In this document: in pieces, positions 1 through 59,652 of the stretch
Numbering within the stretch: the stretch's first letter is position 1
Layout: the number at the start of each line of letters is the position of its first letter
NCBI GenBank assembly: GCA_010405405.1
Contig: MU004235.1
Coordinates: 1,440,538 to 1,504,537 of the forward strand
DNA from: Microthyrium microscopicum
Taxonomy: Eukaryota; Ascomycota; Dothideomycetes; Microthyriales; Microthyriaceae
Reading direction: 5' to 3'
Length of the DNA stretch: 64,000 nt
Translations under genes and position numbers: made by a program
The notes under the pieces: model-generated
Databases searched by the model: none
What the model was told of the DNA's origin: nothing
What the model saw: only the letters and a program-made list of their open reading frames with translations

Positions 1-1700
1 CCAACTCTTGAGGAACTCCCCAAATGGGTTGTTTTGAGCGAAGTCCTGGATGAAATTGAGCGCGACGTATATTTCAATCCAGTTGTAGACGATTCCAGTG
101 GTTCCATTATGATCATGTGCAGCAATCATGAGACGTGCGCCCAACTCAAGGAGTATCTCAAACGCAGACAGCTAGTCGAAGATGCAGAGGACGAGGAATC
201 TGAGCCCCATTTCGCAGCAAGCTTTATGCTGAAGGACAAGCTGCGGAGCTATATCTACTGGAAACGGGCGTTCGCCAAGATGAATGACTCTTTGAAAGCA
301 GATGTCGCGCAATCCATGGAATCGAAAGGCGAAGCTCAGCGCGACGCCCCTCGTCGAGGGCCACCAAACAAGCGGCGAAGAGTCCGCGGCGGCGCGGCTT
401 CTGCTAGTACTGCAAGCCGAATCGAGACTTCGAGGACTGCCGGCGACAAGGAAGCGCATCTGGCCAGCTTGCTTGAAAATGAAGTGCAAGCCGTGGGTGC
501 TGATGGTCTGCCTGAAGAAGAAGTTGTTGTAGATCCGCTAAGCGACAAAGACACATACTTCGAATTGCTCGAGATGCAAGACCTGATTATCGTTCATCCC
601 TATGACGGCGACATCGACGAGCATGCGATTGAAGAAGTGCGCCCGCGCTATGTCATTATGTATGAACCAGAGGCTGCATTCATACGGCGAGTGGAAGTGT
701 ATCGCAGCTCGCATACGGATCGGAATATTCGCGTGTACTTCATGTACTACAAAGACTCCGTGGAGGAGCAGATGTATCTTGCTTCGGTCCGCCGAGAAAA
801 AGATGCATTCACTAAGCTCATCCGCGAGCGAGGAGTAAGTGGCCACAAAAATATGATGATGTTTCGGAGGCTAACGACGCGGCGTAGAACATGGCGATCA
901 CGATTGATAATGCCAAACTTGATCCCGAAGAGGCTTTCTTGAGGACTATCAACACCCGTATTGCAGGTGGCGGCCGAGTAGCTGCTGCCACCGCCGAGCG
1001 GCCTAGAGTTGTGGTCGACACTCGAGAGTTTCGTTCCTCGCTGCCGTCGCTTGTCAACGCGCGTGGAATGGATGTTGTTCCCTGCATGTTGACCGTGGGT
1101 GATTATGTCCTGACGCCAGATATTTGCGTCGAGCGCAAGTCCATCAGTGATTTGATTGGCTCGTTGAACAACGGACGATTGTTTAACCAAGCAGAGACGA
1201 TGCTGGAGCATTACAAATTTCCAATGCTACTGATAGAGTTCGACCAAACGAGAAGCTTCACGCTCGATCCGTTCACTGACTTGTCGGCTGGTCCACAGAG
1301 TGCTTTGTCCTCTGCGCCAGACTTGCAGTCGAAGATTGTGCTTTTGACTCTCGCTTTTCCCCGAATGCGCATCATTTGGTCGAGCTCGCCGTATCAAACG
1401 GCCGAGATTTTCGAGGAGTTGAAAAAGCTGAACGACGAGCCAGATCCGCGCAAAGCTGTGAATATGGGTATACAAGAAGGTGATGATGCGGAGACAGTGC
1501 GTCCATTCAATCAACTTCCCATAGACATGCTTCGAGAGATTCCAGGAATCAACGAGAAGAACATCACTCGACTAAGCTTGGATATTACCAATATCCATGA
1601 GCTGGCGAATTACGAAGAAGACGATATTTGCGCAATGGTAGGTCGTGAAGCTGGTCGCCAGATCTATCGGTTCTTCAACCGAAATATTGGCCGAGACTGA
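1..1700 (+). CDS. RAD1: DNA repair endonuclease XPF/Rad1 (C-terminal part, 5' end outside window)
   Basis: Structure-specific endonuclease of nucleotide excision repair, working with the ERCC1/Rad10 partner in the nucleus. The frame is open from base 1, so the N-terminal helicase-like region lies upstream. Two exons are visible, 1-834 and 888-1700, joined in phase 0 by a 53-nt intron (GTAAGT donor, GCTAACG branch site, TAG acceptor); 548 residues are seen. Exon 2 carries the ERCC4 nuclease motif GDX(n)ERKX3D, read as GDYVLTPDICVERKSISD near 1098-1150 and followed by LIGSLNNGRL, almost identical to the animal protein. The C-terminal (HhH)2 dimerisation domain follows (PIDMLREIPGINEKN to the end). 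The start is not in the window, so length cannot be compared. Confidence 0.96.
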
Positions 1701-4954: not shown

Positions 4955-4970
4955 CCATCGAATGCGATGG
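4955..4970. repeat. 16-nt palindrome (CCATCG-AATG-CGATGG)
   Basis: Perfect 6-bp arms around a 4-nt centre. It is the leftmost member of a local family found only between about 4.9 and 9.6 kb. Its right flank (TACATATCTAATCGG) resembles the right flank of the copy at 9557 (GTACACATCTACTCGG), so the repeat is longer than the palindrome. Confidence 0.7.
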
Positions 4971-5770
4971 TACATATCTAATCGGATGGCAGCCGTCGCT
5001 TGCGCGCACCAAGGCCAGCAACTTGGAATATTGGGTTTCGAGAGGCGCTGGAGACATACAAAAGGATGCATAACATACAGATGATGGAGCGGGCTTGATA
5101 GCGGAGCACGATAAACACATGATTTGAAGGCATTGGCAGGTTTAAAGCATGAATTGAATGGTTTATTGGATCTAAGATAACACGAAAACTAAAGCTAATG
5201 GCACAATGAAATGGAATGTTTGCAGAACCGGCGAAGAGGAGCCATGGGGTAAAAGACACTCTTCAATAGGAATTGCAGTTTGATGTAGCACCCTTTAAGT
5301 GAAGATTCCTTGGGAAAGAAAGAATCTTCACCGTAAAGGCGAGATGACTGGCTGGCTGACGAGTTATAGAAACTTGGGTGCATTGTATTCTACTTCGGTC
5401 TTCTCCAAGCACCAGGGTATAGACCAAGATGCAGGAGATGATGAAGAAGTCTGGCGGGCTTAAGAGGAAGAAGAGGAAGAAGAGGAGGAGAGAGGGATCG
5501 AGGGCTTAAATAGACAACGCGGAGGATTGTTGATGCGCTAGCACCACGGAACTTGATGGAATTCTGCGCCTGATGACTATTGTCATCATCACAAGGCTTT
5601 CAAAACGCGTCAGTGGTGTTTTGAAAAAAAGAGCGCTCCATCTGCGAGCCTAGACCGAAGGGGCCACCAAATTGGACATTGTGTCTGTCCCCATTTCTCC
5701 CTATTGTAGTTGTGGCTGTGCTTCCTGTGAATATTTGCCCAGAGTCAGAAGTCAGTCAAGTGTCTGAGCC
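4971..5770. other. intergenic, candidate minus-strand promoter cassette A
   Basis: On the minus strand a TATTTAAGC box (complement of 5506-5516) is followed by a long pyrimidine tract (complement of about 5460-5505), the usual look of a fungal promoter and start region. Downstream on that strand is a perfect 10-bp inverted repeat. A 62-codon ATG frame overlaps the hairpin (5383 to 5195) but has no recognisable domain. Cassettes B and C resemble it around the TATA box. Confidence 0.4.
5299..5331 (-). other. 10-bp stem inverted repeat in cassette A
   Basis: GTGAAGATTC and GAATCTTCAC are exact reverse complements separated by 13 nt (5299-5308 and 5322-5331). In the minus-strand transcript predicted from the TATA box at 5506-5516 this would be a stable hairpin about 190 nt from the promoter. 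Confidence 0.6.
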
Positions 5771-5950
5771 GTAGTGGTGGGTTTCAGTCATTTTGGAGCT
5801 CTTGAAGCCACCGAGCGACCTGTATTGAAGCCAGCATAAACATAGAGGTCTGCCATCACTTGAGATGGTAGATATAAGGTAGCCTGTTGTCCTTCAACTG
5901 CGATGAAACTTTAGGCTACTAACGTGGATCGCCTTGCGTGAAGTGTTTGA
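5771..5950 (+). repeat. tandem duplication, left unit
   Basis: Shares with the next unit the ordered blocks CAGTCAnTTTnGnnnTCTTGA, AGCnACC, TATTG-AGCCAGC and AGAGGT. The unit contains weak palindromes CCATCACTTGAGATGG (5853) and CCTTCAACTGCGATGA (5891), which lie 38 nt apart. Confidence 0.6.
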
Positions 5951-6135
5951 ACAGTGGTGAAAGTGGCTTCCAGTCACTTTGAGGTCTCTTGAAGCTACAG
6001 AGCAACCTTTATTGCAGCCAGCGCAGACAAGAGGTTCAACCATCGCTATTCATGGTAGATAGATGAAATTATATTGCCCATCGAATGCAATGGGACTTGG
6101 AGTTGATAACGTAGATCGCGTTAGATGAAGCGTAA
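5951..6135 (+). repeat. tandem duplication, right unit
   Basis: Second copy of a unit of about 180-185 bp. The matching palindromes are at 6040 (CCATCGCTATTCATGG) and 6078 (CCATCGAATGCAATGG), again 38 nt apart, which is twice the 19-nt period seen in the arrays at 8.7-9.6 kb. The copies have diverged substantially. Confidence 0.6.
6078..6093. repeat. 16-nt palindrome (CCATCG-AATG-CAATGG)
   Basis: Member of the 16-nt palindrome family with one arm mismatch, preceded at 6040 by a more degenerate copy. It sits in the right unit of the tandem duplication. Confidence 0.65.
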
Positions 6136-7308
6136 TAGACAAATATGACGGAGTCAATCATCTACCTTGACATGAAAATTACTGCATCTTAAAGCTTTTC
6201 ATCTTCGCCCAGCCCTGCCATATATTTCAGCTTAGTAAAAACTGGTTCCAGCGCACTGGAACTTCTGAAAGCGGCGTCCCAACCACATTGAATGCCTATG
6301 CCGTCGTTCTGGTATCGAGGTAGATGTGGATTTAGATCTGATGATTGACGTACACCCAGCATCAGCCCGATAGAAGGACTTTCTGGTGCCCAATCTTATT
6401 CACCGTTGCCAAGCACCAATTCTTCTCTATATAACCCAAAGTCAAGGGTAGATGGCACAGCTATCGACTTTCCGTGATAAACCCAGAGCTCTAACAGCTT
6501 GTCCAGCAACCAGAAGGTCCAATTCCACCTCAGCGACATCTGCTCAGACTCCGAAAGCGCGTCCAGATGGTTTTCGATCACCGTGGACTGAACTTTCGCC
6601 ATGCAGACCTTCCCAAGGACCTTTCAAATACCTCCAAACTGCCCAAGTGCAGAAGCTCAGCGAATGTGGTTGAATCCCGGCCGCCACGCTGCTGTCAGCC
6701 ACATGTCCCCTGGAATCCTTTCCCTGTCTACTCGTGGTTTTCACGCCCCCTAGCCCTCTGAGCCCACAGTTCTTTCCAACTTCTCAACGACCACCGACCA
6801 CATGCCTGTGGCAACCATCGTGAACTGAAGGCAAGAGCTCACTCGTCAAACATCAGAGACAAATCGCGCTAAACTCCTCAAGGCAGGTGTCTACATCAAA
6901 TGATTTTCCAATACAGCTCTGTTGGCGAATACTCAGATCAGTGTTTTGACCGTTCCATAGCTGTAGATAGTTCCACACACAATGTAAAGATACCATAATC
7001 TACAGATAGTTGCTTCGGCATGCCACCAAGTGCCTCGCTTTGTTTTGAATCTAAACGGACTTCCCAGTGTCGAGTTACAGCTCGTTATGTATCGCATCTT
7101 CAAGCCCACAAACCTCATCGGCTGGCAGCAGATTGGCCTGAGAGCCATACAATACACCAAATCAGCGGTATCGTGACTTCCCAGGCACCTTCATTGCCCG
7201 TGACAACACTGCGCTTATCCCCAACAGGAAGGCATTGACATCAATAAGTCGAAGCCGGAGTATTGTTGATGCGGTTATTCCGTGCCAAGACTCTTGCCAT
7301 CTGATGGG
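6136..7308. other. intergenic, no supported gene
   Basis: I see no gene here. A 68-codon minus-strand frame (6602 to 6396) has protein-like composition but no start context, splice partners or family I recognise. A motif near 7256-7273 (GGAGTATTGTTGATGCGG) recurs as GGAGGATTGTTGATGCGC at 5521, next to the TATA box of cassette A. Confidence 0.5.
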
Positions 7309-7360
7309 TATTTAACCTTTCGATCCGTCCACTTCTTCCAACTTTCTTCTTCTTCTTCCC
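7309..7360 (+). promoter_or_regulatory. TATA box and pyrimidine tract of cassette B
   Basis: TATTTAA at 7309-7315 is followed by a CT-rich run to 7360. The same string of features (TATTTAA, CTTTnG, CTTCTTCCAA, TTCTTCTTCTTCC) is found on the minus strand at 10370-10318, so it is part of a duplicated cassette. A TATA box about 30 bases before a start is compatible with either Pol II or a U6-type Pol III promoter. Confidence 0.5.
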
Positions 7361-7460
7361 ACACTAGATAGGTAGATAGTTTAGGTAGCTCGTCTCGACA
7401 ACGCCTTCGCTATCGCCAGTCACGTTCTTGAACAGATTTCGCTAACTTTCTTCTTTTCAT

Positions 7461-7573
7461 AGGTGAGGGGGGAGCATCTGCTCCCTCCTCAAACTATCGG
7501 GCCCGTTACCAGTGTCTTGGACACGAGTCTTCGGACTCGAGAGGCCTTGGGCAAGCCTCTCTCTTTTTTTTTT
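7461..7573 (+). ncRNA. candidate structured RNA: four hairpins then a T10 run
   Basis: Four inverted repeats follow one another: an 11-bp stem with one G-U pair and ATCT loop (7465-7490); GTGTC-TTG-GACAC (7512-7524); CGAGTC-TTCG-GACTCG with a UUCG tetraloop (7524-7539); and GAGAGGC...GCCTCTC (7539-7561). The last stem runs directly into ten T residues at 7564-7573, as in a Pol III terminator. A pyrimidine tract with CTAAC and CATAG just upstream (7442-7462) also resembles an intron 3' end, so the RNA could be part of a spliced transcript. I do not recognise it as U1, U2, U4, U5, U6, U3, SRP, RNase P or MRP RNA. Existence of the hairpins is certain; that it is a gene is inference. Confidence 0.45.
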
Positions 7574-7610
7574 CATTGCATTCTTTGCCTTGTGCGGAGA
7601 TGTGAGGAAG
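7574..7610 (+). repeat. 37-nt tail shared by cassettes B and C
   Basis: The sequence immediately after the T10 run matches the complement of 10096-10132 at 32 of 37 positions with no gaps, and both copies directly follow an oligo-T run (T10 here, T8 there). This establishes that the two loci are paralogous. Confidence 0.7.
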
Positions 7611-8491
7611 AAATTCCTTTACCATTTGGTGGTCATTATGCTTGATATTATTGGAGTGGGGCTGTGAGAGGCATTGTTTTGATGCGAAGTCATGACTATA
7701 TTGGCAATTGATAGTATCTGAGAGAGGTCTGTGAAGATTCTGTGACCATGAGCTATGTCAGAAGCTGTATATGTTCCTTTTCTATGGTGTTTTGAGACTG
7801 CTCTGGCGGTATTGCGTGTTTGTGGGGTATAATCGGGTGGTGAATATTGGCTCAGTCATTGTGGTCAACGAGCGGGCCAGATTATCGCTACGCTGCCACT
7901 CAATGCGCCCGGATGTTATGTGCATGAGGATGAGAAGCTTTTAATTATGATCGTGTTTATGGTAAATTGCATTATCGCTGGGTATTCTGGTGGTGGAGGT
8001 ACAGTGTCTTCACAGCGATGTTGTTCAAGCAAGCCCAAATTTCTGCCACGCTGCTGACAGCGGCGGCAAAGACGATGTCCCAGCGTACATATAATTCTAC
8101 TTTCATGCTAATTCTTGTGATAATTGGAGCCCGCCAGGCATACGAGGATGGTGGAGGCTCAGTGTTACCACTCCCTCCAGGTGGGCCATAAGAATCGGCA
8201 TTGTCCCAGCGACCACGGTGGCTACCAGCGTATCTTGTGTCTACAGTCCAGTACTGGCCATCTGAAGCGATTTATTATTACCTATCTCATGTAATCAATG
8301 GGCTAGAGCCGCAGTCGAAGGCAGTACGGCGTGCATGGCAGCCAACCAGGTCGCTGGAATACGTCAGTTCTGATGGCCACCCTAAATGTTCCGTTTTTCT
8401 GCCACTTTTCTACCTGTTTACTCCTCCACAACAACACACACTTTCAAGCTTTTCACATTGACCTTACAAATACACCTCCAAGCCCACCAAG
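7611..8491. other. intergenic and upstream region of the next gene
   Basis: No supported gene. Degenerate duplicated strings occur (GGTGGAGGTACAGTGT near 7995 and GGTGGAGGCTCAGTGT near 8151). The last 80 bases are a CA/CT-rich leader ending CCACCAAG before an ATG at 8492, typical of a fungal 5' untranslated region. Confidence 0.5.
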
Positions 8492-9776
8492 ATGTCTCCA
8501 ATTAGCATCATTCACCAGCTCCTCGCCGCCATTATGGCGTATTTCACAGGCCTGTTCTTCCAGCTCGCCGTCAACATCCACGGCACCAAGGCCATCAACA
8601 CCATCCTGACCGCCCTCTCTCGAAGTAAGAATACCATTTTCAACCACTTTCCAGCGTTTCCCAGCCATTACGAATTACACCGCGCCTCCCATCGCATTCG
8701 ATGGTCCCCATACGATGCTTTAAACACTCAGTGTTAGGCTTTCCCAAGGCCACGATAGCCAATGTCAGACAATTCCGGGCTTCTGAGCGAGAGAATTTCT
8801 CGAATTACTCGCTTCTACAAGACTTTACCATCGAATCCAATGACTGCCATCGCATTCGATGGTTCCCATATGATTTGTTTGCCATGGCGGCTTATGCTTC
8901 ATTTTGAGCGATTTTCCACATTTCAGCTCCCCTCAGAGGCAGATTTACACGCATTTTGGGCTTCATGGGATATTCTCATCGCTTTAGATGGCTCCCATCG
9001 CACTCGATGGGGCCCGTCGCACTCGCTGGCTGTTTGGCGTATTTTGATAAGAAGCTTGAACTAACATTTTCCAGATGATATTCACATTTCTCAGCTCCGA
9101 AAGGAGCTAAAATCCGTGGTCCGCAGTCAGCCAATGTGGAAATTCGAGGCGTACCGAGCGGCATTTGCAAAGAAGTTGTTCTGTGCATTGCGAATGGAGG
9201 TTTCTTCTCGCCGATTATTGGGAGAAACCATCACTACGAAGTTCTGACATCGTTCAATGGAGGTGGTTTTCTACATCGGCCCCGATGTGATCGACTTCGA
9301 CACGCTTGATACCTTTGCATTGATTGCAGTACTTTTGCCCTGGCTGCTTCGGGCTATGGGTTTACGGTCGCGCGGCTTGATAATCGGTGGGAAAACTCGA
9401 AAATTGGGCTCGGAAAGTGCTAAGTTCTTACAGGATCTATTCTCGAAGTCTGGCCAAAATGGCTGCAGAGGTAAGATTTCCCCTTTTCGAGCCAAATTTC
9501 TCGACAATGAACGATGAAACCGAAAGTACACACTCTCCCATTGCACTCAATGGCTACCATCGAATGCGGTGGGAGATGTACACATCTACTCGGAGAATAC
9601 AGGAACGGCCTATTCAAGGCGTGTTAGCTCTAAAAAATGTTATACTAACTAGTTTCAGCGATGCTTCAGAAGATTTGGTTGAGCAAAACTCTCTTATCTG
9701 CCGTTTTCTTCACGAATTGACCAGAATCAATGGTCCATTGCGAAGCGAGGTGGGAGCTTACGGAACATTCATGTAG
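8492..9776 (+). CDS. hypothetical protein, five exons, long palindrome-bearing introns
   Basis: Model: exons 8492-8624, 9075-9199, 9263-9386, 9434-9470 and 9659-9776, giving 178 residues with all phases consistent and a TAG stop. Intron 1 (450 nt, GTAAGA, CTAAC branch, CAG) and intron 4 (188 nt, GTAAGA, TACTAAC branch, CAG) have strong signals; introns 2 (63 nt, GTTTCT donor) and 3 (47 nt, GTGGGA donor) have weaker donors and are less sure. The N-terminus is hydrophobic (AAIMAYFTGLFFQLAV), then a basic helix-like stretch (QLRKELKSVVRSQPMWKFEA), a second hydrophobic stretch (FALIAVLLPWLL) and a polar tail. I do not recognise a family. The pyrimidine-rich leader and good splice signals favour a real gene; exon 3 borders may differ. 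Confidence 0.45.
8689..8704. repeat. 16-nt palindrome in intron 1
   Basis: CCATCG-CATT-CGATGG, perfect arms. A partial unit beginning CCATACGATG follows at 8708, exactly 19 nt after the start of this one. Confidence 0.75.
8828..8875. repeat. palindrome array in intron 1, 19-nt period
   Basis: Units begin at 8828 (CCATCGAATCCAATGA), 8847 (CCATCGCATTCGATGG, perfect) and 8866 (CCATATGATTTG, partial): two consecutive 19-nt steps. Confidence 0.75.
8976..9029. repeat. palindrome array in intron 1, 19-nt period
   Basis: Three units begin at 8976 (TCATCGCTTTAGATGG), 8995 (CCATCGCACTCGATGG, perfect) and 9014 (CCGTCGCACTCGCTGG), each a 16-nt dyad plus a 3-nt spacer. This is the clearest array in the window. 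Confidence 0.8.
9538..9572. repeat. palindrome array in intron 4, 19-nt period
   Basis: CCATTGCACTCAATGG (9538-9553, perfect) and CCATCGAATGCGGTGG (9557-9572, one G-U type pair) start 19 nt apart. In the first unit both arms changed together (CCATTG/CAATGG), which keeps the pairing. Confidence 0.8.
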
Positions 9777-11936: not shown

Positions 11937-12366
11937 ATGAAGCCTGTTGTATCTGCTGGCAATGCCTGGACCTGGTAACTCCTCCTATTCGTCGTGCAGC
12001 ATGAGGTCCGACCCGCTAACAGAGTTGCAGCATCGTGGTCTCGGTCTTTGCTATCGTCATTCTCTCGATACTCGGATCGATGTTCAAGGTATGTAGCTTG
12101 AGAGACCATTCAAGCTTGAGCTTTGCTAATGTCTCACCTCCGCAGAACGGTCATCATACAGTCATGGGCTCGACAGAAGACCCGGTTGACGGCGCAGCCG
12201 TAGCGGGTACCATCTTCGGAGCAGTATTTGTCTACATTGTAAGCTTCACCTTATAACCACACTAAGCGTTGGTACTAACGATCAACAGGGATTCCTGGTA
12301 TTCTGCGCCTCTCAAGCGTTCCTACACATGCGCGAAAGCCGCCGCGGGGCGATAGCCTTATCATAA
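11937..12366 (+). CDS. V-type proton ATPase Vo subunit f (RNase kappa family)
   Basis: Small two-helix membrane subunit of the Vo sector of the vacuolar proton pump, the fungal relative of animal RNASEK and of yeast YPR170W-B. Four exons: 11937-11974, 12031-12088, 12146-12238, 12289-12366 (88 residues). The protein begins MKPVVSAGNAWTCIVVSVFA and has ILSILGSMF, GSTEDPVDGAAVAGTIF and VYIGFLVFCASQAFLH; the yeast protein has the same PVVSxGxAW, GSxxDPxDGxAVA and VFCxxQ pattern. Two hydrophobic segments (about 12-31 and 52-74) flank the conserved loop. All introns are 50-57 nt with standard signals. It is convergent with ELP3. It is easily missed because no single exon exceeds 31 codons. Confidence 0.92.
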
Positions 12367-12594: not shown

Positions 12595-14388
12595 TTACTC
12601 CTCGTCCGTGGAGTCATCGAGGTCAGGCAGCATCTTGGACATATATGGTCCATCCAGCCAATACCCCAAACGCGCATAGTAGCTTCTCACACCGACGCCA
12701 CTGATGACAGATATCTTACTGCTACCATGCTCATCCCTAGCAATTCGCTCCGCCTCTTCCATCAGCAACGTTCCAAACCCTTGGTGTTGAAACTTCTTTG
12801 GATCGCGCGCATGCACTGGCACAGCAGTTCCATACACATGCAATTCACGAACCAAACTTGTCGGTTGTCCTGTCAGCTCAGGGCGGAAGGTGTGTGTCGT
12901 GCTGCACTTCCGCAGTCTTAGCAGTGCGATCAGGATATCCTGCTTTGGGTCCTCGTAGGCCAAGAATGTCTCCCAGCCGCCATTTGCTGCATAATCTCTT
13001 CGCACCAACTCGACCTGCGACGGCCGTATCTTGTGCTTCACCTCGTTGATGCCTACTTCTCGCGTCCGCACGTCTCGGCATGTTGTGCCAAAGTCCTTCA
13101 TGCGGGCTAGCGCTAGCTCACGCAGATTGCCGTTCTCTACGCCGGATGTGACTAGAGGCATGGGAATATCACGCTGGACACGATAAATGCGCGTCCATGG
13201 AGGAATGAGAGCTAGGATGCGAGCCACTATGTCGATGAGCGCATTGGGTGTGTAGTTCTTGTACCGACCGGTCCGCCAAAGCTCGTAGAGACCAGTTCCA
13301 CGTATCACAAGAGTGGGATAGATTTTGAGACCGTCCGTCCGGAAGTCGGGATTCTCAAAGTACTCACGGAATTGATCCAAGTCCCGCTCCATACCCACAT
13401 TCGGCAAATCGGGCATCATATGAGATACAACTTTGAAGCCAGCATCTTTGGCCAACTTGAACGTTTCCGCAACAGCAGCAACTGTATGGCCACGGTTGGT
13501 ATCTCGGGCGACATCTTCATAGAGCGATTGGACGCCGATTTCGAGACGAGTGCAGCCATATCTCAGCATGGCCGATAGATGTTGGTCCAGACAATAGTCT
13601 GGCCGCGTTTCGATGGTAATGCCCACGCATTTGATGTCGCTCTGTTCTCCTGCGCTGACTGCTTCGTCGACATTGGTTGTGCAGTAGCCGGAGAGCGCAT
13701 TATGTAGCTGAGCTATGAACTCATCTCTATAGCTCTCTGGCAATGACATGAATGTGCCGCCCATAATGATGTACTCTACTTTATCGACGGAGTGGCCCAG
13801 TGATTTGATTTGGTCCACCCGACCTCGAGCTTGCTCAAACGGATCATATCGAGCTCGGATGGCTCTCATGGATGTTGGTTCGTAGCCTGTATATGACTGT
13901 GTCGAGTATTCAAAGTCTGAGTCTGGGCCACCGGGACAATACACACATATGTTCCCCGTGTAGGAAATATGTGGACATCTATGTGGTTTGCACATCACGG
14001 CTACCACAGCTATTCCAGACGACGTTCCTAATTCTCGTCAGCACGAATCATGAAGACGGGGAAAAGCACGGTATACGTATAACATACTGATTGGTTTTGC
14101 TATCAACTTTGGCAGGATATATTTCTTATAGTGCTCTGGTACTGCCGCGATAATCGCTGTCAAAGGCGGCAGCGAAGCCAGATAGTGTTTCTTTGCGATT
14201 TGGCCACGAAGAGAGTTAAGATTGATATCTTTCTTTGGTCCAGATCCATTTACTTGCTCCTCATAGTCTTGGATTAGAGCGCTGGCTATGTCTGCGCATG
14301 CGCGCATATACCGTTCATTTTCTGGAGCCAGTTTATGGCCCTTTGGCATCCGCCTTTGGCGGGTTGCTGTGGCCGTAACCGTAGCCAT
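12595..14388 (-). CDS. ELP3: Elongator complex catalytic subunit Elp3
   Basis: Radical SAM/acetyl-CoA enzyme of Elongator that makes the cm5 side chain on wobble uridine of tRNAs. Exon 1 is 14388-14088 and exon 2 is 14027-12595, joined in phase 1 across a 60-nt intron (GTATGT, GCTGAC branch, TAG) inside the conserved [17 protein letters not shown] segment; 577 residues, close to the yeast length. The iron-sulphur cysteines are in [19 protein letters not shown]. The motif GVQSLYEDV and the [11 protein letters not shown] region follow, and the C-terminal GNAT domain includes [16 protein letters not shown] and YYARLGY. The start ATG at 14388 was chosen because the upstream extension lacks an ATG. 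It is divergent from the succinyl-CoA ligase gene. Confidence 0.97.
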
Positions 14389-14693
14389 GATGGCTGAACC
14401 CCAAATCAGATCTTGCTTATGGATTTTCAAAATGCGAACTGTGGCTGTACTTTCAGATTAAAATTGAAGGTTTTGGTGATTCCAAAACCAAAGTCACAAA
14501 AAATGTGGCGGAAATAAGCGGACGGCGCGCCAAGACCAGCGCTAGTCCTGGAAACAGATCTCCGCCTTGAGCTCCTCAAGCTCTTTCGTTCTACCATAAG
14601 TTTCTCGAATCCATTGCTCGCCCATCTACCCTATTTCCTCTCTTCTTCTCTTCAATCCTGCGTTAGAGCGCTCTTGCAAACTTCGCGCTCACG
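14389..14693. promoter_or_regulatory. divergent promoter region ELP3 / succinyl-CoA ligase alpha
   Basis: 305 bp between two start codons transcribed away from each other. It contains CT-rich stretches near 14637-14652 on the succinyl-CoA ligase side. No recognisable TATA box. Confidence 0.5.
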
Positions 14694-15889
14694 ATGCAGG
14701 CATTTCGGCGTCCAATACAGAGTGGATTGCGACAAGTAATCCGCTCCAGGGGATACGCAAGCTCATCCTCTCCATACGCCTCGACAAACAAGAATCTGCG
14801 CATCAGTGGAGACACTAAGGTGCTATTTCAAGGTTTTACTGGAAAGCAAGGCTCGTGAGTACTATCCAATCGCGATTCGTGATGAAATGCGCTAATCGCC
14901 CCGTTCGCAGATTTCACGCGGAGCAAGCCATCGAATACGGTACTTTATCTCGTTAGTCCCCGAATGACGAGGAAACTAAAGCTTCATAGGCACAAATGTT
15001 ATCGGTGGTACAAATCCCAAGAAAGCTAGCACTGAGCATCTCGGTAAACCGGTTTTCGCGACTGTGAAGGAAGCTCGGGAAAAGACTGGCGCAAATGCAT
15101 CAGCTATCTTCGTTCCGTATGTTGAGATAAGTCGGATAAGAGGATAAACACTGATTTCTGGGCCACAGTCCACCACTAGCGGCAAAGAGTATTGAGGAGG
15201 CTATCGAGGCGGAGATGCCATTGGTCGTCTGGTGAGTTTGAGATTTGAGGTGCTGATAGGAGAGTTAACAAAACAATAGCATCACTGAGGGCATCCCTCA
15301 ACACGACATGGTCAGAATCACCGATATGCTCAAAACACAGGACAAGACACGTTTAGTAGGACCCAACTGCCCAGGTATCATCGCTCCGGGGCAATGCAAG
15401 ATCGGTATCATGCCAGGCTTCATCCACAAGCGTGGTCGTATTGGAATTGTCTCTCGGTCAGGAACTCTTACATACGAGGCCGTCAATCAAACAACACAAG
15501 CAGGCCTCGGCCAATCTCTCGTCGTTGGTATTGGTGGTGATCCATTCAGCGGAACCAACTTCATCGACTGCCTCGACGTCTTCCTGAAAGACAAGGAGAC
15601 CGACGGAATCATCATGATTGGTGAAATCGGTGGCAGCGCCGAGGAAGATGCCGCCGACTTCTTGAAAGAGTACAACACCGCCAACAAGCCAGTCGTCAGC
15701 TTCATCGCCGGTATCTCTGCTCCTCCAGGCCGGAGAATGGGACACGCTGGTGCCATTATCAGCGGTGGAAAGGGTGGCGCTGACTCCAAGATTGCTGCAT
15801 TGGAAGCTGCTGGTGTGCTTGTTGAGCGCAGCCCGGCAGGTCTTGGAAAGAGACTGCATGCTGAGTTCGTTAAACGTGACATGATATAG
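14694..15889 (+). CDS. LSC1: succinate--CoA ligase subunit alpha, mitochondrial
   Basis: TCA-cycle enzyme subunit that binds CoA and carries the phosphohistidine. Five exons: 14694-14854, 14911-14939 (only 29 nt), 14990-15116, 15169-15231, 15280-15889; 329 residues, the same as yeast Lsc1. The N-terminus ([20 protein letters not shown]) is a typical basic mitochondrial presequence. Landmarks are [20 protein letters not shown] (CoA-binding Rossmann part), [12 protein letters not shown], and [17 protein letters not shown] containing the catalytic His. Exon 2 has a weak GTACTT donor but is required to give EYGTNVIGG. Convergent with the HET gene. Confidence 0.96.
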
Positions 15890-47587: not shown

Positions 47588-49964
47588 CTACACCATGTGC
47601 AGTTCGAGTTTATCCCCCTCGCTGAAAGGCTTCAAGCAAGTAGGACACTTGCGATTCCGGTTGGTGATTCGATCTTTGACGCACTCAGAGCACATGACAT
47701 GCCCACAAGACTTGAGTACTATATTCTTGGGGTTGGATCTGCACACGCTGCAATATACGAAGTCCTGTTTTAGTTGGTTAGTAAGCACAAACTTCGTGCA
47801 GCACAGGAACTGCTTACCTTGAGGTTTTTAACCATCTCACTCTCATCCTTGGGCGATTTATGCTTCAATGCATCCAGTTTCTTCTTGGTGTCGGTAAGCT
47901 GTGATTGTAAGCCTGCAGCTTCTCGTTGCGCTTCATATGTTGCCGCTTGCGCGGTGGCTAAATCTGTATCTTTCGCGGCGATTGCTCGTTTCCACGATTC
48001 CGTTTGAGTTGCGTGACCAGCTGCAAGAGTTTTTAGGCTGGTGACTTCTGACGTTAAAGTACGATGTTGTAGTGTTAATGCATCCAGTTGACTACGAGCT
48101 TCTGCCAGCTGTTTTTCAAGATTGGCGGCATACTCGCGGCTTTTATTCTCTGCTTCCTTCAGCTGTTGGATGATCTCAGCACTCTTGCCGCTTTGTTTGC
48201 GCATCAATTCGCATTCTTGACGTCGAGCCTCTAAAGCTTGTCGTTCGTTGAATCGTTTGCTTTCCAGTTGGTGCTTATCTTCGCGAAGTTTCTGGTTGTG
48301 CTCCTCAATCTGAACCGTCTCTTTCACCTTGCTCAGTGCCTTTTGCTTGTATTTGGTAATCGCTTCCTGCATGTTCGTCATCTCACTAGATAATATGTCG
48401 TACTGAGAACGCTTGGAAGCCAACTCGGATTTCAGTGCATCAACGCCTTGCTCCGCAATAGCATCAATGGCAGCATCTGCTTCCACCGGCTCACGTCTGA
48501 GCAACCTGACTTCATCTTCCAAAGCCAGAATTTGCTTTTCATGGGCCTCGTTGAGGCCACTGACCTCTCGCATGGCAAGAGTGTACTTGGTCTGATTTGA
48601 TTCAAGCATGGCTCTTTGCTGATGGGTCTGATCTCTTTCAGAGCGAATCCGCTGAATATCCAAGTCTACCCGAGCGACTTGAGCCTCGGCTTCTTCGATC
48701 CTCAGCCGGCATTCCTCTTCCACTTGGCCACGATAAAGAGTTCGTTCCGAAGCCAATTTGGTCGCTTCTTCTCGGAGTAGAACATTCTTGGCTTCGATAT
48801 CGTTGATGCGCTTTAGGACATCCTCGTGTTGTGCTTTGAGTGCTTTAAATAATTCGGTTTTGGCGTAGTCCTCGTCATTCAAGCTAAGCATCCGGGTAGT
48901 CGCAGTGCTGAGCTGCTCATTGACTTTGGCGTTATTGGCCTCCAGTGTGGCGATTTGTTCCTTGCATTTCTCGAGTTCAGCCATGATCTCGAGTTTGCGC
49001 TGTTCCAAAAGTTCTACTGATGCCCCATTGACCTCCGAGACCCCGTTAGTTGAGGCTCCGTTGGATTGCTTGGCTCCATCTGAAGAGCTCTCTCGAGCGG
49101 GACCCTGGTCCGATGTTGTTTGTTGGCGATTTAGCATTTCCAAATACTGACTGGTCTGGCTTTTTTGCTTGTCAAGGGCATGCTTTGCCATGCCCCACTT
49201 GTACATATAATCATCTTTCTTGGTGTCCGCCTCTTTCCAACTAAGCTCTAGAAGCTCATACCGTTCAGCATGAGCTTTCTCAGCAGCAAGCAATCGATCT
49301 ATTTCGCGTTGTAACTCGGCGATATCAGGTGTTGCGGTTGGAGCTCGCGCAATGATTGAATCCATGAGCTGTTGGAGAGTATTAAAGCGATCTTTGAGAG
49401 AGTTGTTGAATATGTCGTTACTCTTCAGTGAAAGGAGTTTGGACAGTTGGGATGGGTTGTCCTCGAGAGGTTTGGAAATTGAAGTCATATCACCAATGAG
49501 TACGGCTAGTTCATCCGAGAACTAAAGCGACGATTAGCCGGTGCCATCATGCCACGAATAGTATCCATACCTGTTCAAGCCATTTATCAACTGAGATGGC
49601 GCGTATCTTGAGATTCTTTTCCCGCTCTTGGCAGTCTTTCAGCTCTTGTTCAAGTCGCAATTTATCACGTTTATGTTCGCGCATTTGTCGCCAAATCGCA
49701 TCCTTCTGGACGGCCTAAAACAAGATCGGTGGTTAGTATTGTTGGCAGAAGGAGTATGAAAAGGGTACGCACCGATAAGTCGACAGCCCATGGGGAGGTG
49801 GTGGGCCCAATCTTGACATCGAGGGCATCATCAGTGTTGCCAGCCGTGTTCTGACGCTTGTTGGGTGGAGGTTGTAAGTCATCGTTTTCAATGGGGCGTT
49901 TGCGCTCTTCCATCTTGATAGATGCAAGCGATGGCTTTGACTGTAGCATGGCCTTGAGACTCAT
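47588..49964 (-). CDS. BRE1: E3 ubiquitin ligase Bre1 (histone H2B)
   Basis: RING ligase that monoubiquitinates histone H2B. Four exons: 49964-49773, 49714-49571, 49521-47818, 47764-47588, all junctions phase 0; 738 residues. The N-terminus has KMEERKRPIENDD and PPPNKRQ (nuclear-localisation-like), then long coiled coils through the middle, for example ALEDEVRLLRREP and EKQLAEARSQLDALTLQHRT. The C-terminal RING is in its own exon: CSVCRSNPKNIVLKSCGHVM, CSECVKDRITNRNRKCPTC. The start at 49964 is the first ATG of the frame; the next Met (in KMEERKRP) is also plausible. Confidence 0.95.
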
Positions 49965-54398: not shown

Positions 54399-57300
54399 TT
54401 AGACTTCACCATCAACAATGGCCAACCGCTCCTTCATAGTCTTAGCCTTTTTACTAATTCGCTTTTTCTTGCCGGGAGGTGCAGCAGCTTCAATCGGTGT
54501 GGCAGCACCACTAGGTTTGGCACTATCCTCAAAGTGGCCCTCGCCTATCATACTCATTAGCATGCTTGCAGTTGTAGGGGACAAAGACGGTGACTTACCT
54601 TCGTGATACATATCCTCCAGCGTACCAGCAACACCACGCTTCCGCTTCTTGGCTCCAGCTTTCTCCTTCTTGTCTTCGCCGCGGGCAAGAGCTTCTGCTT
54701 CAAGACGTTCGATTTCTTCAGCTTGATCATCATCGGCAAGCCATAATGCGATGTCCTTGGTACGATTTTCGCGACTCCGAGTGTTGAAATCGATACCAGA
54801 CCCGGCGCTCGATTGACCAGAGATGACAACACGCTGAACTTCTTCCTTCTGCAGCGCACGCTTACGGATACGTTCTTCGATTGTGCCGCGCGTAATGAGA
54901 CGGTAGACAGTGACTTGGCGAGTTTGACCAAGACGATGAGCGCGATCCATGGCTTGGCTATCAATGGTAGGATTCCAATCGGAGTCGTAAAAAATAACAG
55001 TGTCAGCGGACGTCAAGTTGATACCTAGACCACCAGCGCGAGTGGATAGCAGGAAGACAAAGATGTCGGGGTTGGACTGGAAGTCTGCGACGGTGTCACG
55101 ACGGTCTTCGAGTTTTGTAGAACCATCGAGGCGGCAGTATTTGTAATTGCGGTAGGTTAGGTACTCTTCCATCAAGTCGATCATGCGGGTCATTTGGAAG
55201 TATAGCAGTACGCGATGACCGCCGGCCTTGAGTTCCTTCAGGAGAGTATCGAGACGGGCTAATTTACCGCAGTCGGAGACGAAGCGGGTCATGCTAGGTA
55301 CGGTGATCTTGGTGTATCGAGCGAGGCGCTGATCGGCTTCTGGAAGCATGTCCACAGCAGCTGGAATGAGGTCGGGATCGAGTTTTTGTTCGACAATGGC
55401 ATCTTCGAATTGCTGTGTGACACCGAACAATGCTGTCTGCATTGGGATGTTGAATAAGCAATCTTGAGTCTCGATGATCGCACCTTGCGAGGAGCAGTCA
55501 AGATGGATTGGTGGAGCAGATGCTTGTGGTCGAGCGGCAGGCTCAAGGTATCCGAGTCCAGATGCTTCGTAGACAGATGTACGCATATCCAGAAGAGCCT
55601 CCAGTTTGCCATTCTTGCCAGCAGCCTTCTCAGAAAGAGAGTTCATGTCTTTTATGTTGAACAATGCATGTACAGGCGTGAACTTATTGTCGTCTTGGCC
55701 ATCGTAGAATGCCCCTATGCGACCAAGATTCCGTGACTTGGACCGAAGATCAACGGCACGCTGAAAGACGTCTTTACCGTAGATGCTGGAAACTTCGCTG
55801 GCCGAAGCATCACAAAATCGCAGCCAAGAAAAGATGCCATCCTCTTTAGCAGATTTGTGAATATATTCAGGACTGAAGATGTTCATCATATGATGAAGCG
55901 TCTTATTCCGCCAACCTGCTTTTTCGTTGTCTGGGCCAGGAATGTCAAGTCGGCCGCCATCTCGATATACGAGGCGAGGAACCGTATACTCGATCTTGTT
56001 TCGCACACTGTACGCGACGTTGACGTTATTTCCTTCGCGCACAAAAGATGCAGTCTCGGCCCAGTAGCTGAAGGAGAACGGCGACGCAGTATCAGCACGC
56101 TCAAAAAGATCTGGATGATTGCAGACTTTTCGGAACTGCATGACCAAGTTCATGAGTGTTGCAGTATCTTGATCGTCTCCAAGCTGTGCCTTTTCAATGA
56201 GATCCATCAAGCTGATACGATTACGCAAGCTGGTGTAGTATGCGCGTTGACGATATGTGAGGTTGCAGAAGACATCCATTTCAATCTTGTCTCCGAGTTC
56301 TTTCTGAACATGCTTCTTGACACGACGCAACATGAACGGCTTGAGAATCATGTGCAGTCGCTTCAGCTGATCTTCATTGAGCTTCGTGTTGCTCTGCGCG
56401 TGGCTTTCAATGTCTTTGGAGAACCATTCGCTGAACTCGTCGTGAGAATCGAAAAGTGTCGGCATAATAAAATGTAGCAAAGCCCAAAGCTCCTGCATGT
56501 TGTTCTGGATTGGTGTACCAGTAAGCAATAGTCGATTACGGCAGTGAAACTGAAGAAGACTTTTCCATCGAGAGCTCTGAGAAGACTTGATAGCTTGAGC
56601 CTCGTCAAGAATCATATATTGCCAAGTCATGCGCTGGAAGTATTGAGCATCTTGAACAACGATTTGATAGGAAGTAACCAGCACGTGGAAATTAGCTTCG
56701 CGTTGATAGGTGATGTGTTTGCGATCCCAGAACTTTCGAAGAACTTTGCGATCCTTTGCAGTTCCCCAGTATGGTAGGACTTTGAATTCAGGAACGAATT
56801 TTGCAATCTCCTGTTGCCAATTGTGAAGAGTTGATGCTGGCGCGACGACCAAGAATGGACCCCAAATGTTGTGCTGTTCGGCCAAATGTGCCATAACAGA
56901 GATAGACTGTACAGTCTTTCCAAGACCCATTTCGTCTGCCAGAATACCGTTGATGCCTTGCTCGTAAAGATTGACAAGCCAGTTGAGACCCTTGAGCTGG
57001 TATTCTTTCAGAGAACAAGACAAAAGCTTTGGTTGAGCAATATCCATGCTTTGCAAACTCGTGGGATTCTGAAAGTTCATCTCGCCATCATCGTCGTCTT
57101 CATCCATGGCAGCTCGATCAAATTCCTTGGCTCGGTCCTTTGCTTCTTGGATGGCATTTTGAGCATTTGCCATGGCAGCATCACGTAGTGCGGTTTCGTC
57201 TTCATCATCAAAATCGAGATCTTCAAAGTTGGTGACTTTCTTCCCAACCTTGGACGGTTCCTCCGGCATGTTGTCATTCTCCGGTTCAGGGATGGTTGTG

Positions 57301-59652
57301 TCCTTGGCAGCAACATCATCGGTAGATCTCTCGAGTTCTTGCGTTTTGACCTTCTTGCCAATGAAATGGGAGTACAACTCGGTTTGAGAGATCAAGAAAT
57401 TGAGCTTGCGGCGTTGACGAGCAGCTTCACGTTCAGCTTCTTCCTTCTTGGCATTCTCAAGTTCCTGTCGTTCTGCCATCTTGCGCTGATCGCGTTCATC
57501 ACGTTCATTGCGTCGCCAGAACGTAGCCATCTCTCGCATACTTCGCTTCGCCCGCGCTTGCACATCTTTTGTGCTCTTGTTGGTACGAAGTTGGAATCGA
57601 CGAGCTTCTTTACCAGCGAGTTGAGCAGTCTTGCGCAAATTGGAAGCTTTGGTGCCAATGGAGTCGTTTCGAATACGGACAACCTTGGCAATATCGCGCT
57701 TTGATATGTCTTTCCAGATTGAGTCGAAGAACTGATTATAAACCTTGGAGGTATACGGCTCTTTGCGAGGCACAGCCGGAGGAGCTGGAGTATCAGGTTC
57801 AGAGTCGAGCTCATTAACCGAGTCTCCATCACGTCCAGGCTTGACCTTTTCCAGCTTCTCCAGACGCGCTGCCTTCTTGGGAGCGATGGCTGGAAGAGTT
57901 TCGCCGCGGTCAATAGCCGCTTGAGCCGCTGCCGCTGCGTCTTTCTCTGCCTGCTTTTGCTCTTTGCTCTTGCGTGGGCGCGTAGTCATTCTACCGCCAC
58001 GGCCACGGCGTGAGTCTTTTTGATCTTCACTAGCTTGGAAAGAGCCCATGATTCCACCCTCCATGTTTGGTCCTTGAGGTGTGACATCCCGAAGTTCCTT
58101 GCTAACAGCAACACCGGAGAGTAATTGAGTTGTGTGGCGAATCTTCTTCTCATGCTTGTTAGCATCGCGGAGAAACTTTTCTTTGTCATCACTATTCTCG
58201 GCTTGGTTAGCACGTTCCAAGGCTTCTTCTCGCTTCTGGGATTCTTGCTGGAGAGCTTTCTCGCGACGTCGCTTGCGTTGCATGTCCTTCTTGCGTTCTT
58301 TTTCTTCCTTGACTTCTTGTGCCTGGACTTCTTTCCATGCAACATGTTCATTTACTCGGAAGTATTCCTCTTCACCACGCTTGGCACATGCTTCGAATAT
58401 CGCAAGAAATCGATGTGAGGTGTAAACGCGTCGACGCTATACTAGTCAGCTTGATCAATGTCATTAAGGGCGTCGCATACCTTTCGATGTTGCTCCTCCT
58501 TTTCTGTCAACTCAGACGCGCGTCGTTTGCCTAGACCTTTGAAATCATCCTTCCAAGTGTCAAGCTCGACTGGGCTTACACCATCGTCGGAATCATCCAG
58601 AGATCTTAGGGCTAATGCCATGTCTTGAGGATCCGGACGATGTTTAGATGAAGTTGTACCATTCGTGGCACCATTCATGTGAACATCAGAATGACCATTA
58701 GCCATTTGCTTCCCTTGTGATTTCGATGGAAAATCTGGTGTGACAGGGCCAGGGGCAATGGCTTGCGAAGATGTAGAGATGGGATCGAGTTTGATGGGAT
58801 GGTGGGATGGTTTTGATGATGACCGACGACGTTCTGCTGACGGAGGCTTGCCATAGGATGGCGAAGGCTCTTCATTATTTCCTGAAATGATGCTTGATAG
58901 GGCCATCGGATCTGCTCGCCGTGGAGGAGTCTTGATGGAATTCAAATTAGTTGATGAAATATTGTAGTTGGGGATTTATTTATGCTTACCTCTTTGGCGG
59001 GTGGCCGAGTGGGTGATGAATAGGCGGGGTTGGAGTACATTGCAGATGGCGGTGGATGAATGGGAGATGGTCGATGGTAGTTTGCCGCGTTGGGAGATTG
59101 GGAAGGTCTTGAGGTTTCGAAGCTCACTGGGGGCCGTGCATCGCCATAACCAACAGGGTCTCGTCGCTGACGTGGGTGGTTAGTAGCAAATCGGGCAAAA
59201 AGGAGTATATAGTGAATTTATTTGTCGGTAATCACTGGAGACAAACTTACCTCTATCGCGGTTGGATCGTATCTGGTGGTGCCTCGAGGCGTTATAGAGC
59301 TATCCCCGAAATCTTGTGTAGGATCATAGTATTTGGAGGGCGTTTCTCGCTGAATGACGGAAGTCAAGGGAGGAAGTCCGTTTGGTGGTGATGCCGGACT
59401 AGGGTGCGAAGGGTTGAAGGAAGGTTGAAGGGTTGGAGGTGGATGGTAATTGTTAAAGCCTTGTTGAGTGGGCGATGGAAGGGAGGCATGGTTCGCACTG
59501 GCGGCAGCATTTGCCAAATGGGTTAAAGCTACAGCGGCATTGTCTCCTGAAGCTGGGTTTGTGGTGTCTAGTCCACTTCGCGACAATCTGCGAGTACCAT
59601 TCCCATCATCCGACTGACGAGGAGAATTTTGTAGCCCCGAGCCGCGATACAT
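54399..59652 (-). CDS. INO80: chromatin-remodelling ATPase INO80
   Basis: Catalytic subunit of the INO80 nucleosome remodeller. Exons: 59652-59251, 59166-58990, 58930-58481, 58436-54599, 54544-54399; 1670 residues. The first 350 residues are Ser/Pro-rich and disordered. Then a charged coiled region ([20 protein letters not shown]), the DBINO/HSA region ([20 protein letters not shown]), the SNF2 ATPase ([28 protein letters not shown] Walker A, DEAQ box in [12 protein letters not shown]), a long insertion characteristic of INO80, and the helicase C lobe ([34 protein letters not shown]). The last intron (54598-54545) is 54 nt, in frame and free of stops, so reading through adds 18 residues; its GTAAGT, GCTAATG and ATAG signals make splicing more likely. 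Confidence 0.95.

Follow-up and report, generated by a model that had tools for sequence, protein, structure and literature searches.

In a window of 64,000 nucleotides from contig MU004235.1 of Microthyrium microscopicum, a piece of the nuclear genome of a filamentous ascomycete, a 16-nt palindrome of the form CCATCG-N4-CGATGG is concentrated between 4.9 and 9.6 kb. Its copies lie in small clusters, in which neighbours mostly start 19 nt apart, and all described units sit in the gap between two convergent genes, named here XPF and ELP3 (Table 1). The best explanation, which is held tentatively, is that of a local, decaying, hairpin-prone repeat that was spread by fold-back template switching or by slippage and that shows no clear sign of constraint. 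Both the mechanism of copying and the lack of function are what we infer from the sequence.

The abundance of the palindrome was assessed by a site score, the number of matches over the 12 arm positions. All 4 perfect sites of the window (4955, 8689, 8847, and 8995) are located within 4.9-9.6 kb, as are all 6 sites with at least 11 matches and 14 of the 18 sites with at least 10. For the whole 64 kb, 200 first-order Markov simulations gave means of 0.0, 0.17, and 2.4 sites at these three levels, with maxima of 0, 3, and 7. A looser pattern, allowing up to 2 mismatches, was matched 27 times against 9.1 expected, a count that was reached by none of 100 shuffles. The initial annotation had described a locally concentrated family, and in this it was right; the count is well beyond chance. 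The coordinates of the six dyads it listed are also correct, although the unit at 6078 is not a full dyad, one arm being changed (CCATCG/CAATGG). Its statement that none occur elsewhere is true of sites with at least 11 matches, which are absent from the remaining 59 kb of the window, but 4 sites with 10 matches exist there (17901, 49879, 50027, and 50944), close to the number expected by chance. Among perfect dyads with 6-nt arms in the stretch, a loop length of 4 is prominent (11 against 1.26 expected); these 11 consist of 4 CCATCG units, 1 variant at 9538, and 6 unrelated hairpins. No other 16-mer of equal copy number (at least 13/16 matches, within 4.6 kb) was found in the window, save low-complexity coding repeats near 63 kb.

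The set used below comprises 14 units in 7 clusters, with 13 distinct sequences. Units 5891 and 4974 were added on account of their spacing. The sites at 8206 and 9273, with at least 10 matches, were left out for their unlike loops and the lack of a noted 19-nt neighbour, both also scoring below 7 bits in a profile scan, and 4 sites with 9 matches (5544, 6955, 8258, and 8342) were left out as well. In the profile scan of the window, about 2 sites of at least 12 bits are expected by chance, and 1 was found outside the stretch. The best outside match, at 49879-49925, is TCATCGTTTTCAATGG with 15.1 bits, and a weaker palindrome (9/12) follows 31 nt further; this site is indistinguishable from chance.

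The spacing of the units was surveyed around 9 strong anchors at 18 places, neighbouring anchors being counted from both sides. Offset 19 displayed the highest mean score (5.72), with at least 8 matches at 6 of the 18 places, compared to 3 of 18 at offset 38 and 2 of 18 at offset 35. Offset 10 had a mean of 5.44 and a single place of 18, a value ascribed to the palindrome overlapping itself; the means of the remaining offsets were about 1-4. The 19-nt spacing claimed in the initial annotation is therefore upheld as the best offset around strong anchors. That adjacent units are exactly 19 nt apart is correct as to spacing, but the units at 8708 and 8866 are degenerate. Similarly, both 38-nt pairs are present but are one event, not independent ones, because both ride in a tandem duplication of about 190 bp; their middle slots, at 5872 (4/12) and 6059 (3/12), hold no recognisable unit. 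The suggestion of two DNA turns per unit fails, as 19 nt corresponds to about 1.8 turns. Among the clusters, Tandem Repeats Finder detected only 8987-9031 (period 19, 2.4 copies, 76% matches), and what is seen as a tandem repeat is 2-3 units per cluster at 19-nt steps in mixed orientation. Two other kinds of repeat were rejected. A coding repeat does not fit, as 19 is not a multiple of 3 and no strong coding signal lies over the units. A higher-order repeat of 158/148 bp linking 8689, 8847, and 8995 was discarded: the blastn match between 8844-9015 and 8686-8867 (E 1e-7) rests on its ends, and 31 of 500 shuffles score as well as the real middles do.

Once each unit is oriented by its loop, a whole 19-nt word, (CTC)CCATCGCATTCGATGG, is seen to be common to the units, so that oriented 16-19-mers were copied. 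Among the 6 units with at least 11 matches, pairwise identity is 0.94 in the arms, which served to pick the units, and 0.92 in the loop, where orientation by the loop favours identity; it is 0.62 in the 3 nt before the unit and 0.27 in the 3 nt after. The corresponding values for 12 units are 0.82, 0.68, 0.47, and 0.28. With nulls of 0.29 for the loop (the same orienting rule applied) and 0.25 for the flanks, the 3 nt after the unit are at chance identity. The loops are CATT/CACT or the reverse complement AATG, and thus copies exist in both orientations. Units 8689 and 8847 are the same in sequence, unit 4955 is the exact reverse complement of both, and the CACT loop is common to 8995, 9014, and 9538. 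The loop is about as conserved as the arms, whereas it should vary freely if only the dyad were selected, and the units thus have the appearance of copies related by descent.

The tandem duplication that holds the clusters at 5853 and 6040 was detected by blastn of the gap against the window. In its columns, 22 of 32 positions are identical in the units and 113 of 160 in the flanks (Fisher p 0.83). The sites are thus no better preserved than their flanks in this only internal duplicate, which covers 4 of the 14 units. Neutral decay, taken as half the flank divergence, predicts 10.0 of 12 arm matches, and 10, 9, 10, and 11 were observed. By this only internal rate measure, the units inside the duplication show neutral decay.

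Covariation of the arms was compared with 500 shuffles over the 14 units (13 distinct). Two pairs are changed on both sides, against 0.8 in shuffles, and 95 of the 500 shuffles are as high; the covariation of the arms is high for chance without clearly exceeding it. In the unit at 9538 the matched change of both arms had been taken as a hint of selection for the dyad or of a mechanism keeping it. This change consists of CG to TG in one arm and CG to CA in the other, and is explained by two ordinary CpG transitions; a count of the four combinations indicates that two independent CpG transitions are mirror-matched in half of cases. Compensatory arm changes, which the initial annotation had proposed to look for, are not supported, the covariation score being reached by 30 of 500 shuffles and the two-sided pairs as often as stated above. 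An apparent compensatory change of this kind should not be taken as selection without a control, for two CpG transitions suffice here.

These observations are consistent with the following course of events. A 19-nt oriented word was copied inside a gene-poor stretch of 4.6 kb, both head-to-tail and inverted; its self-complementary arms would have allowed slippage or folding back of the DNA strand during synthesis. A strand needs a loop of at least about 3 nt to fold back. Fold-back with a 3-nt hairpin loop would yield an inverted 16-nt copy exactly 19 nt off, the 3 nt between the two being arbitrary. Of the inverted pairs, 8828/8847 and 9538/9557 agree with this; the two units at 9538 and 9557 jointly form a hairpin with arms of about 19 nt and a loop of 3 nt. 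The same-orientation copies 8976/8995/9014 may have arisen from ordinary tandem slippage, the segmental duplication copied 5853/5891 to 6040/6078, and the copies would afterwards decay at the neutral rate. Template switching is described as creating and repairing stems in PMC8794818. A stronger version, in which a self-copying nuclear palindrome of 16 nt seeds inverted copies at 19 nt by fold-back over its 3-nt loop, makes a young gene's introns longer, and maintains matching arms without selection, is considered unlikely. If the fold-back explanation is true, the locus would be a compact natural record of short palindromes arising, multiplying, and decaying in nuclear DNA, and the 19-nt step would be a mechanistic fingerprint composed of a 16-nt word and a minimal 3-nt loop.

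Several points weigh against fold-back copying with neutral decay. The test of neutral decay spans only 4 of the 14 units. Among 10 neighbouring pairs, 5 agree more closely when inverted and 5 when direct, with a margin of only 1-2 letters in 9 of the 10, and the clearest pair, 8995/9014, is direct (14 versus 10), whereas fold-back predicts inverted neighbours. Spacers within clusters look, by eye, less alike than those of duplicated 19-mers should be. Perfect units amid unrelated flanks imply that copying was recent or that the units are maintained, and copying between 4955 and 8689, over 3.7 kb, is far for a single template-switch event. The flanks 4-14 nt after the unit exceed their null (0.33-0.38 versus 0.25), an excess probably due to neighbouring units. 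Paired cells (85.9%, 36 of 500 shuffles as high) and the covariation score (0.186) lie towards the upper end of the shuffles. Additionally, the outside site at 49879 beats the leave-one-out scores of the accepted units 6040 (10.2), 5853 (11.8), and 9014 (15.0).

More than half of the units (8 of 14) are located within introns 1 and 3 of a predicted orphan gene, G1; no clear host intron was found for the remaining 6. The model of G1 is based on consensus splice signals, with GTAAGA donors and CTAAC branch points 6 nt before CAG. Its first intron, at 450 nt, is long for a fungus, and without intron 2 the frame stops after 101 codons. Over its 175 codons the mean codon score is 0.039, compared to -0.105 for the null (p 0.003). 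This value falls among those of 14 known frames (-0.068 to 0.166) and differs from that of gap sequence free of stops. The signal rests on exons 1 (0.163) and 2 (0.078), exon 3 scoring -0.025. No Pfam match to G1 was obtained at E <= 1, and its best PDB match (E 0.52) is not convincing.

Table 1. Palindrome clusters, the duplication, and predicted or named genes in the window
Feature	Positions	Strand	Description
Cluster c4955	4955-5008		Unit 4955 (12/12, loop AATG, i.e. minus orientation) with degenerate 4974 (8/12) and 4993 (7/12); 19-nt steps
Cluster c5853	5853-5906		Units 5853 (10/12) and 5891 (9/12), 38 nt apart; middle slot without recognisable unit
Cluster c6040	6040-6093		Units 6040 (10/12) and 6078 (11/12), 38 nt apart; copy of c5853 made by the tandem duplication
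Cluster c8689	8689-8717		Unit 8689 (12/12) with shortened unit CCATACGATG at 8708 (6/12)
Cluster c8828	8828-8875		Units 8828 (10/12, minus), 8847 (12/12, plus), and degenerate 8866 (7/12); 19-nt steps, first two opposed
Cluster c8976	8976-9029		Units 8976 (10/12), 8995 (12/12), and 9014 (10/12); all plus orientation, 19-nt steps
Cluster c9538	9538-9572		Units 9538 (10/12, both arms changed at CpG) and 9557 (11/12); opposite orientation
Tandem duplication, about 190 bp	5755-6133 (5755-5946 / 5938-6133)	+	70.6% identity, E 4.8e-24; holds c5853 and c6040
Predicted orphan gene G1	8492-9720	+	Exons 8492-8624, 9075-9199, 9263-9470, 9659-9717; stop 9718-9720; 175 aa
Predicted intron 1 of G1	8625-9074	+	GTAAGA ... 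CTAACATTTTCCAG, 450 nt; holds c8689, c8828, c8976
Predicted intron 2 of G1	9200-9262	+	63 nt, unusual weak donor GTTTCT
Predicted intron 3 of G1	9471-9658	+	GTAAGA ... CTAACTAGTTTCAG, 188 nt; holds c9538
XPF	891-1697	+	ERCC4 domain protein (Pfam)
ELP3	12598-14007	-	Radical SAM and weak acetyltransferase domains (Pfam); named from that pair

The XPF-ELP3 gap has no strong coding signal except for an exon resembling V-ATPase subunit f at 12146-12250 (+ strand; PF23489, E 6.3e-14, two same-frame stretches), which adjoins ELP3. The Pfam scan covered 9 proteins of the window and also found succinyl-CoA ligase, AP medium subunit, fungal-specific transcription factor domain, BRE1, and other families. 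The best PDB matches of the protein at 54402-58436 are Ino80 entries, which we take to be from Chaetomium. On the + strand of 14151-14800, five 100-nt windows fold strongly (z -3.0 to -5.6). Within the gap, three stretches resemble transcription units, carrying a TATTTAA box together with a CT-rich tract: 7256-7610 (+), 10400-10096 (-), and 5540-5200 (-). Around these signals the first two have 51 nt in common (78%), and both also carry a 45-nt element that follows a T-run (89%); the relation of the third is weaker. Their folding z values are -3.2, -4.75, and -2.9, with no Rfam match at gathering score; they may form a family of local genes for structured non-coding RNA. In the first, 7463-7575 consists of successive strong GC-rich hairpins, of which one has a UUCG loop, followed by a T run (z -3.9 for 7455-7580), and resembles a structured RNA whose end is pol III-like. 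A telomerase RNA locus was considered and rejected, no AACCCTAAC being present in the window.

The main rival explanation is a cluster of protein-binding sites, in which each 16-bp dyad would hold a probable dimer, the 19-bp spacing would serve dimer contact, and the array would regulate G1 or the RNA-like units. We regard this as rather unlikely. Several features would be consistent with binding: conservation that drops sharply on the 3' side of the 16-mer and partly on its 5' side, a free 3' spacer combined with a fixed spacing, homotypic clustering in one gene-poor stretch, and the persistence of perfect units beside unrelated flanks. Were it true, the locus would represent a homotypic cluster of regulatory sites for an undescribed protein of the fungus. 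However, a homodimer reading only the arms is not expected to leave an asymmetric loop about as conserved as the arms (0.92 versus 0.94 in the best 6 units) in both orientations. The decay at the rate of the flanks in the duplicated units (4 of 14) argues against binding too, as does the location of 8 of 14 units in predicted introns and not in a promoter, and at about 1.8 helical turns neighbouring sites would be out of phase. The protein-binding array suggested in the initial annotation thus keeps its sharp 3' edge and fixed spacing but is at odds with the conserved loop and the neutral rate. The mobile short repeat that it also suggested has support in a weak sense: whole 16-19-mers were copied locally and in both orientations, but a footprint resembling transposition occurs at one cluster only. 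Here the inverted units would be the terminal inverted repeats of a miniature inverted-repeat transposable element of about 45 bp with a 7-bp target duplication, which is quite unlikely. The inverted pair at 9538 does lie between direct GTACACA repeats 5 nt outside both ends (9526-9584; single-test p 0.006), and the copies have unrelated flanks. Yet the other 9 of 10 cluster definitions (7 clusters) have flanking repeats of only 3-4 nt, so that a 7-bp duplication was found at 1 of 10 and the corrected p is about 0.06. The three-unit array in one orientation does not fit such an element, nor does the lack of sites with at least 11 matches in the 59 kb outside the stretch. Moreover, a six-frame Pfam scan of 1.7-12.6 kb (E <= 1) gave no transposase family, although genes cut by introns can escape it. 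The units may also be subterminal repeats of a larger DNA transposon, for which that scan again offered no transposase.

A role as RNA hairpins, with the dyads folding in transcripts (G1 introns or RNA-like units) and acting in splicing, processing, or small-RNA production, appears very unlikely and is the least supported as a common explanation. Apart from the 8 units in two predicted introns, it is favoured by folding at two clusters. Folding was compared with shuffles for six of the 7 clusters, c5853 being left out, and z on the +/- strands is -5.1/-5.3 for the cluster at 9538, where pairing extends beyond the units, and -2.7/-3.5 for that at 8828. Intron 3 of G1 likewise has a z of -3.36. 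Windows of 100 nt with z below -2.5 are commoner in 4.9-10.4 kb (12.8%) than beyond 12.6 kb (4.5%; 24 shuffles each), and the 40 lowest-z windows include 9501, over the cluster at 9538 (-5.3/-4.3), and 6001, over that at 6040 (-1.1/-3.0). However, the other folded clusters are moderate or nil (8976, -2.25/-1.86; 4955, -0.3/+0.7; + strand only, 8689, -2.1, and 6040, -1.6), and intron 1 reaches only -1.95. Strong RNA structure as a property common to the units is rejected by these results, and of the hairpin array proposed initially there remain the cluster at 9538, which folds far better than shuffles, and that at 8828, which does so moderately, but not that at 4955, which does not at all. A free loop would be expected of hairpins, yet the loop is conserved, and no clear compensatory signal was found. 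Rfam 15 gave no match in the window at gathering score; below it, 5 matches were found in 1.7-12.6 kb (E 0.12-1.5), including mir-1677 over the cluster at 9538 with 22.2 bits against 84 needed.

No published account of this repeat was seen among the matches listed in partial literature searches, which is no proof of its absence from print; among the matches listed there was likewise nothing on point for CCATCG with regulators or for fungal intronic minisatellites. Listed papers containing the unit words appeared unrelated, and those on short palindromes, introns, and fungal genomes included work on organelles, CRISPR, small RNA, and mitochondrial genomes. A two-unit pattern and a unit with the next left arm each had no matches in viral and genome contig collections, and blastn of 8600-9700 against plasmids returned nothing; the collections being viral, prokaryotic, or plasmid in content, these negatives carry little weight. 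Compared to fungal minisatellites, including intronic ones, the repeat is alike in its short tandem unit, its place in non-coding DNA and introns, and its local confinement, but its arrays have only 2-3 units in 7 clusters and its palindromic unit occurs in both orientations. Bacterial repetitive extragenic palindromes (REPs) and their mosaic arrays (BIMEs) are also short palindromes of alternating orientation in small non-coding clusters. REPs occur throughout bacterial genomes and are linked to RAYT transposases, whereas this locus is eukaryotic, with no site of at least 11 matches in the other 59 kb and no transposase family found in the gap. The symmetrical stwintrons of Hypoxylaceae, as presented in PMC8469720, are proliferating fungal introns with terminal inverted repeats of 45-55 nt that are copied as whole introns. 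The likeness to them is one of fungal introns with inverted symmetry; the difference is that the 16-nt dyads described here are internal to otherwise unlike predicted introns and also lie outside introns. No repeats at the ends of the G1 introns are among the 25 of 76 inverted pairs listed, the ends not having been searched separately. Quasi-palindrome or template-switch mutations, a subject that PMC3855049 and PMC3820800 also appear to treat, are understood to be single events at single sites, whereas at this locus the same word is found in each of 7 clusters, with 19-nt steps prevailing. The likeness lies in the local reverse-complement copies and in the repair of stem arms without selection, as described in PMC8794818.

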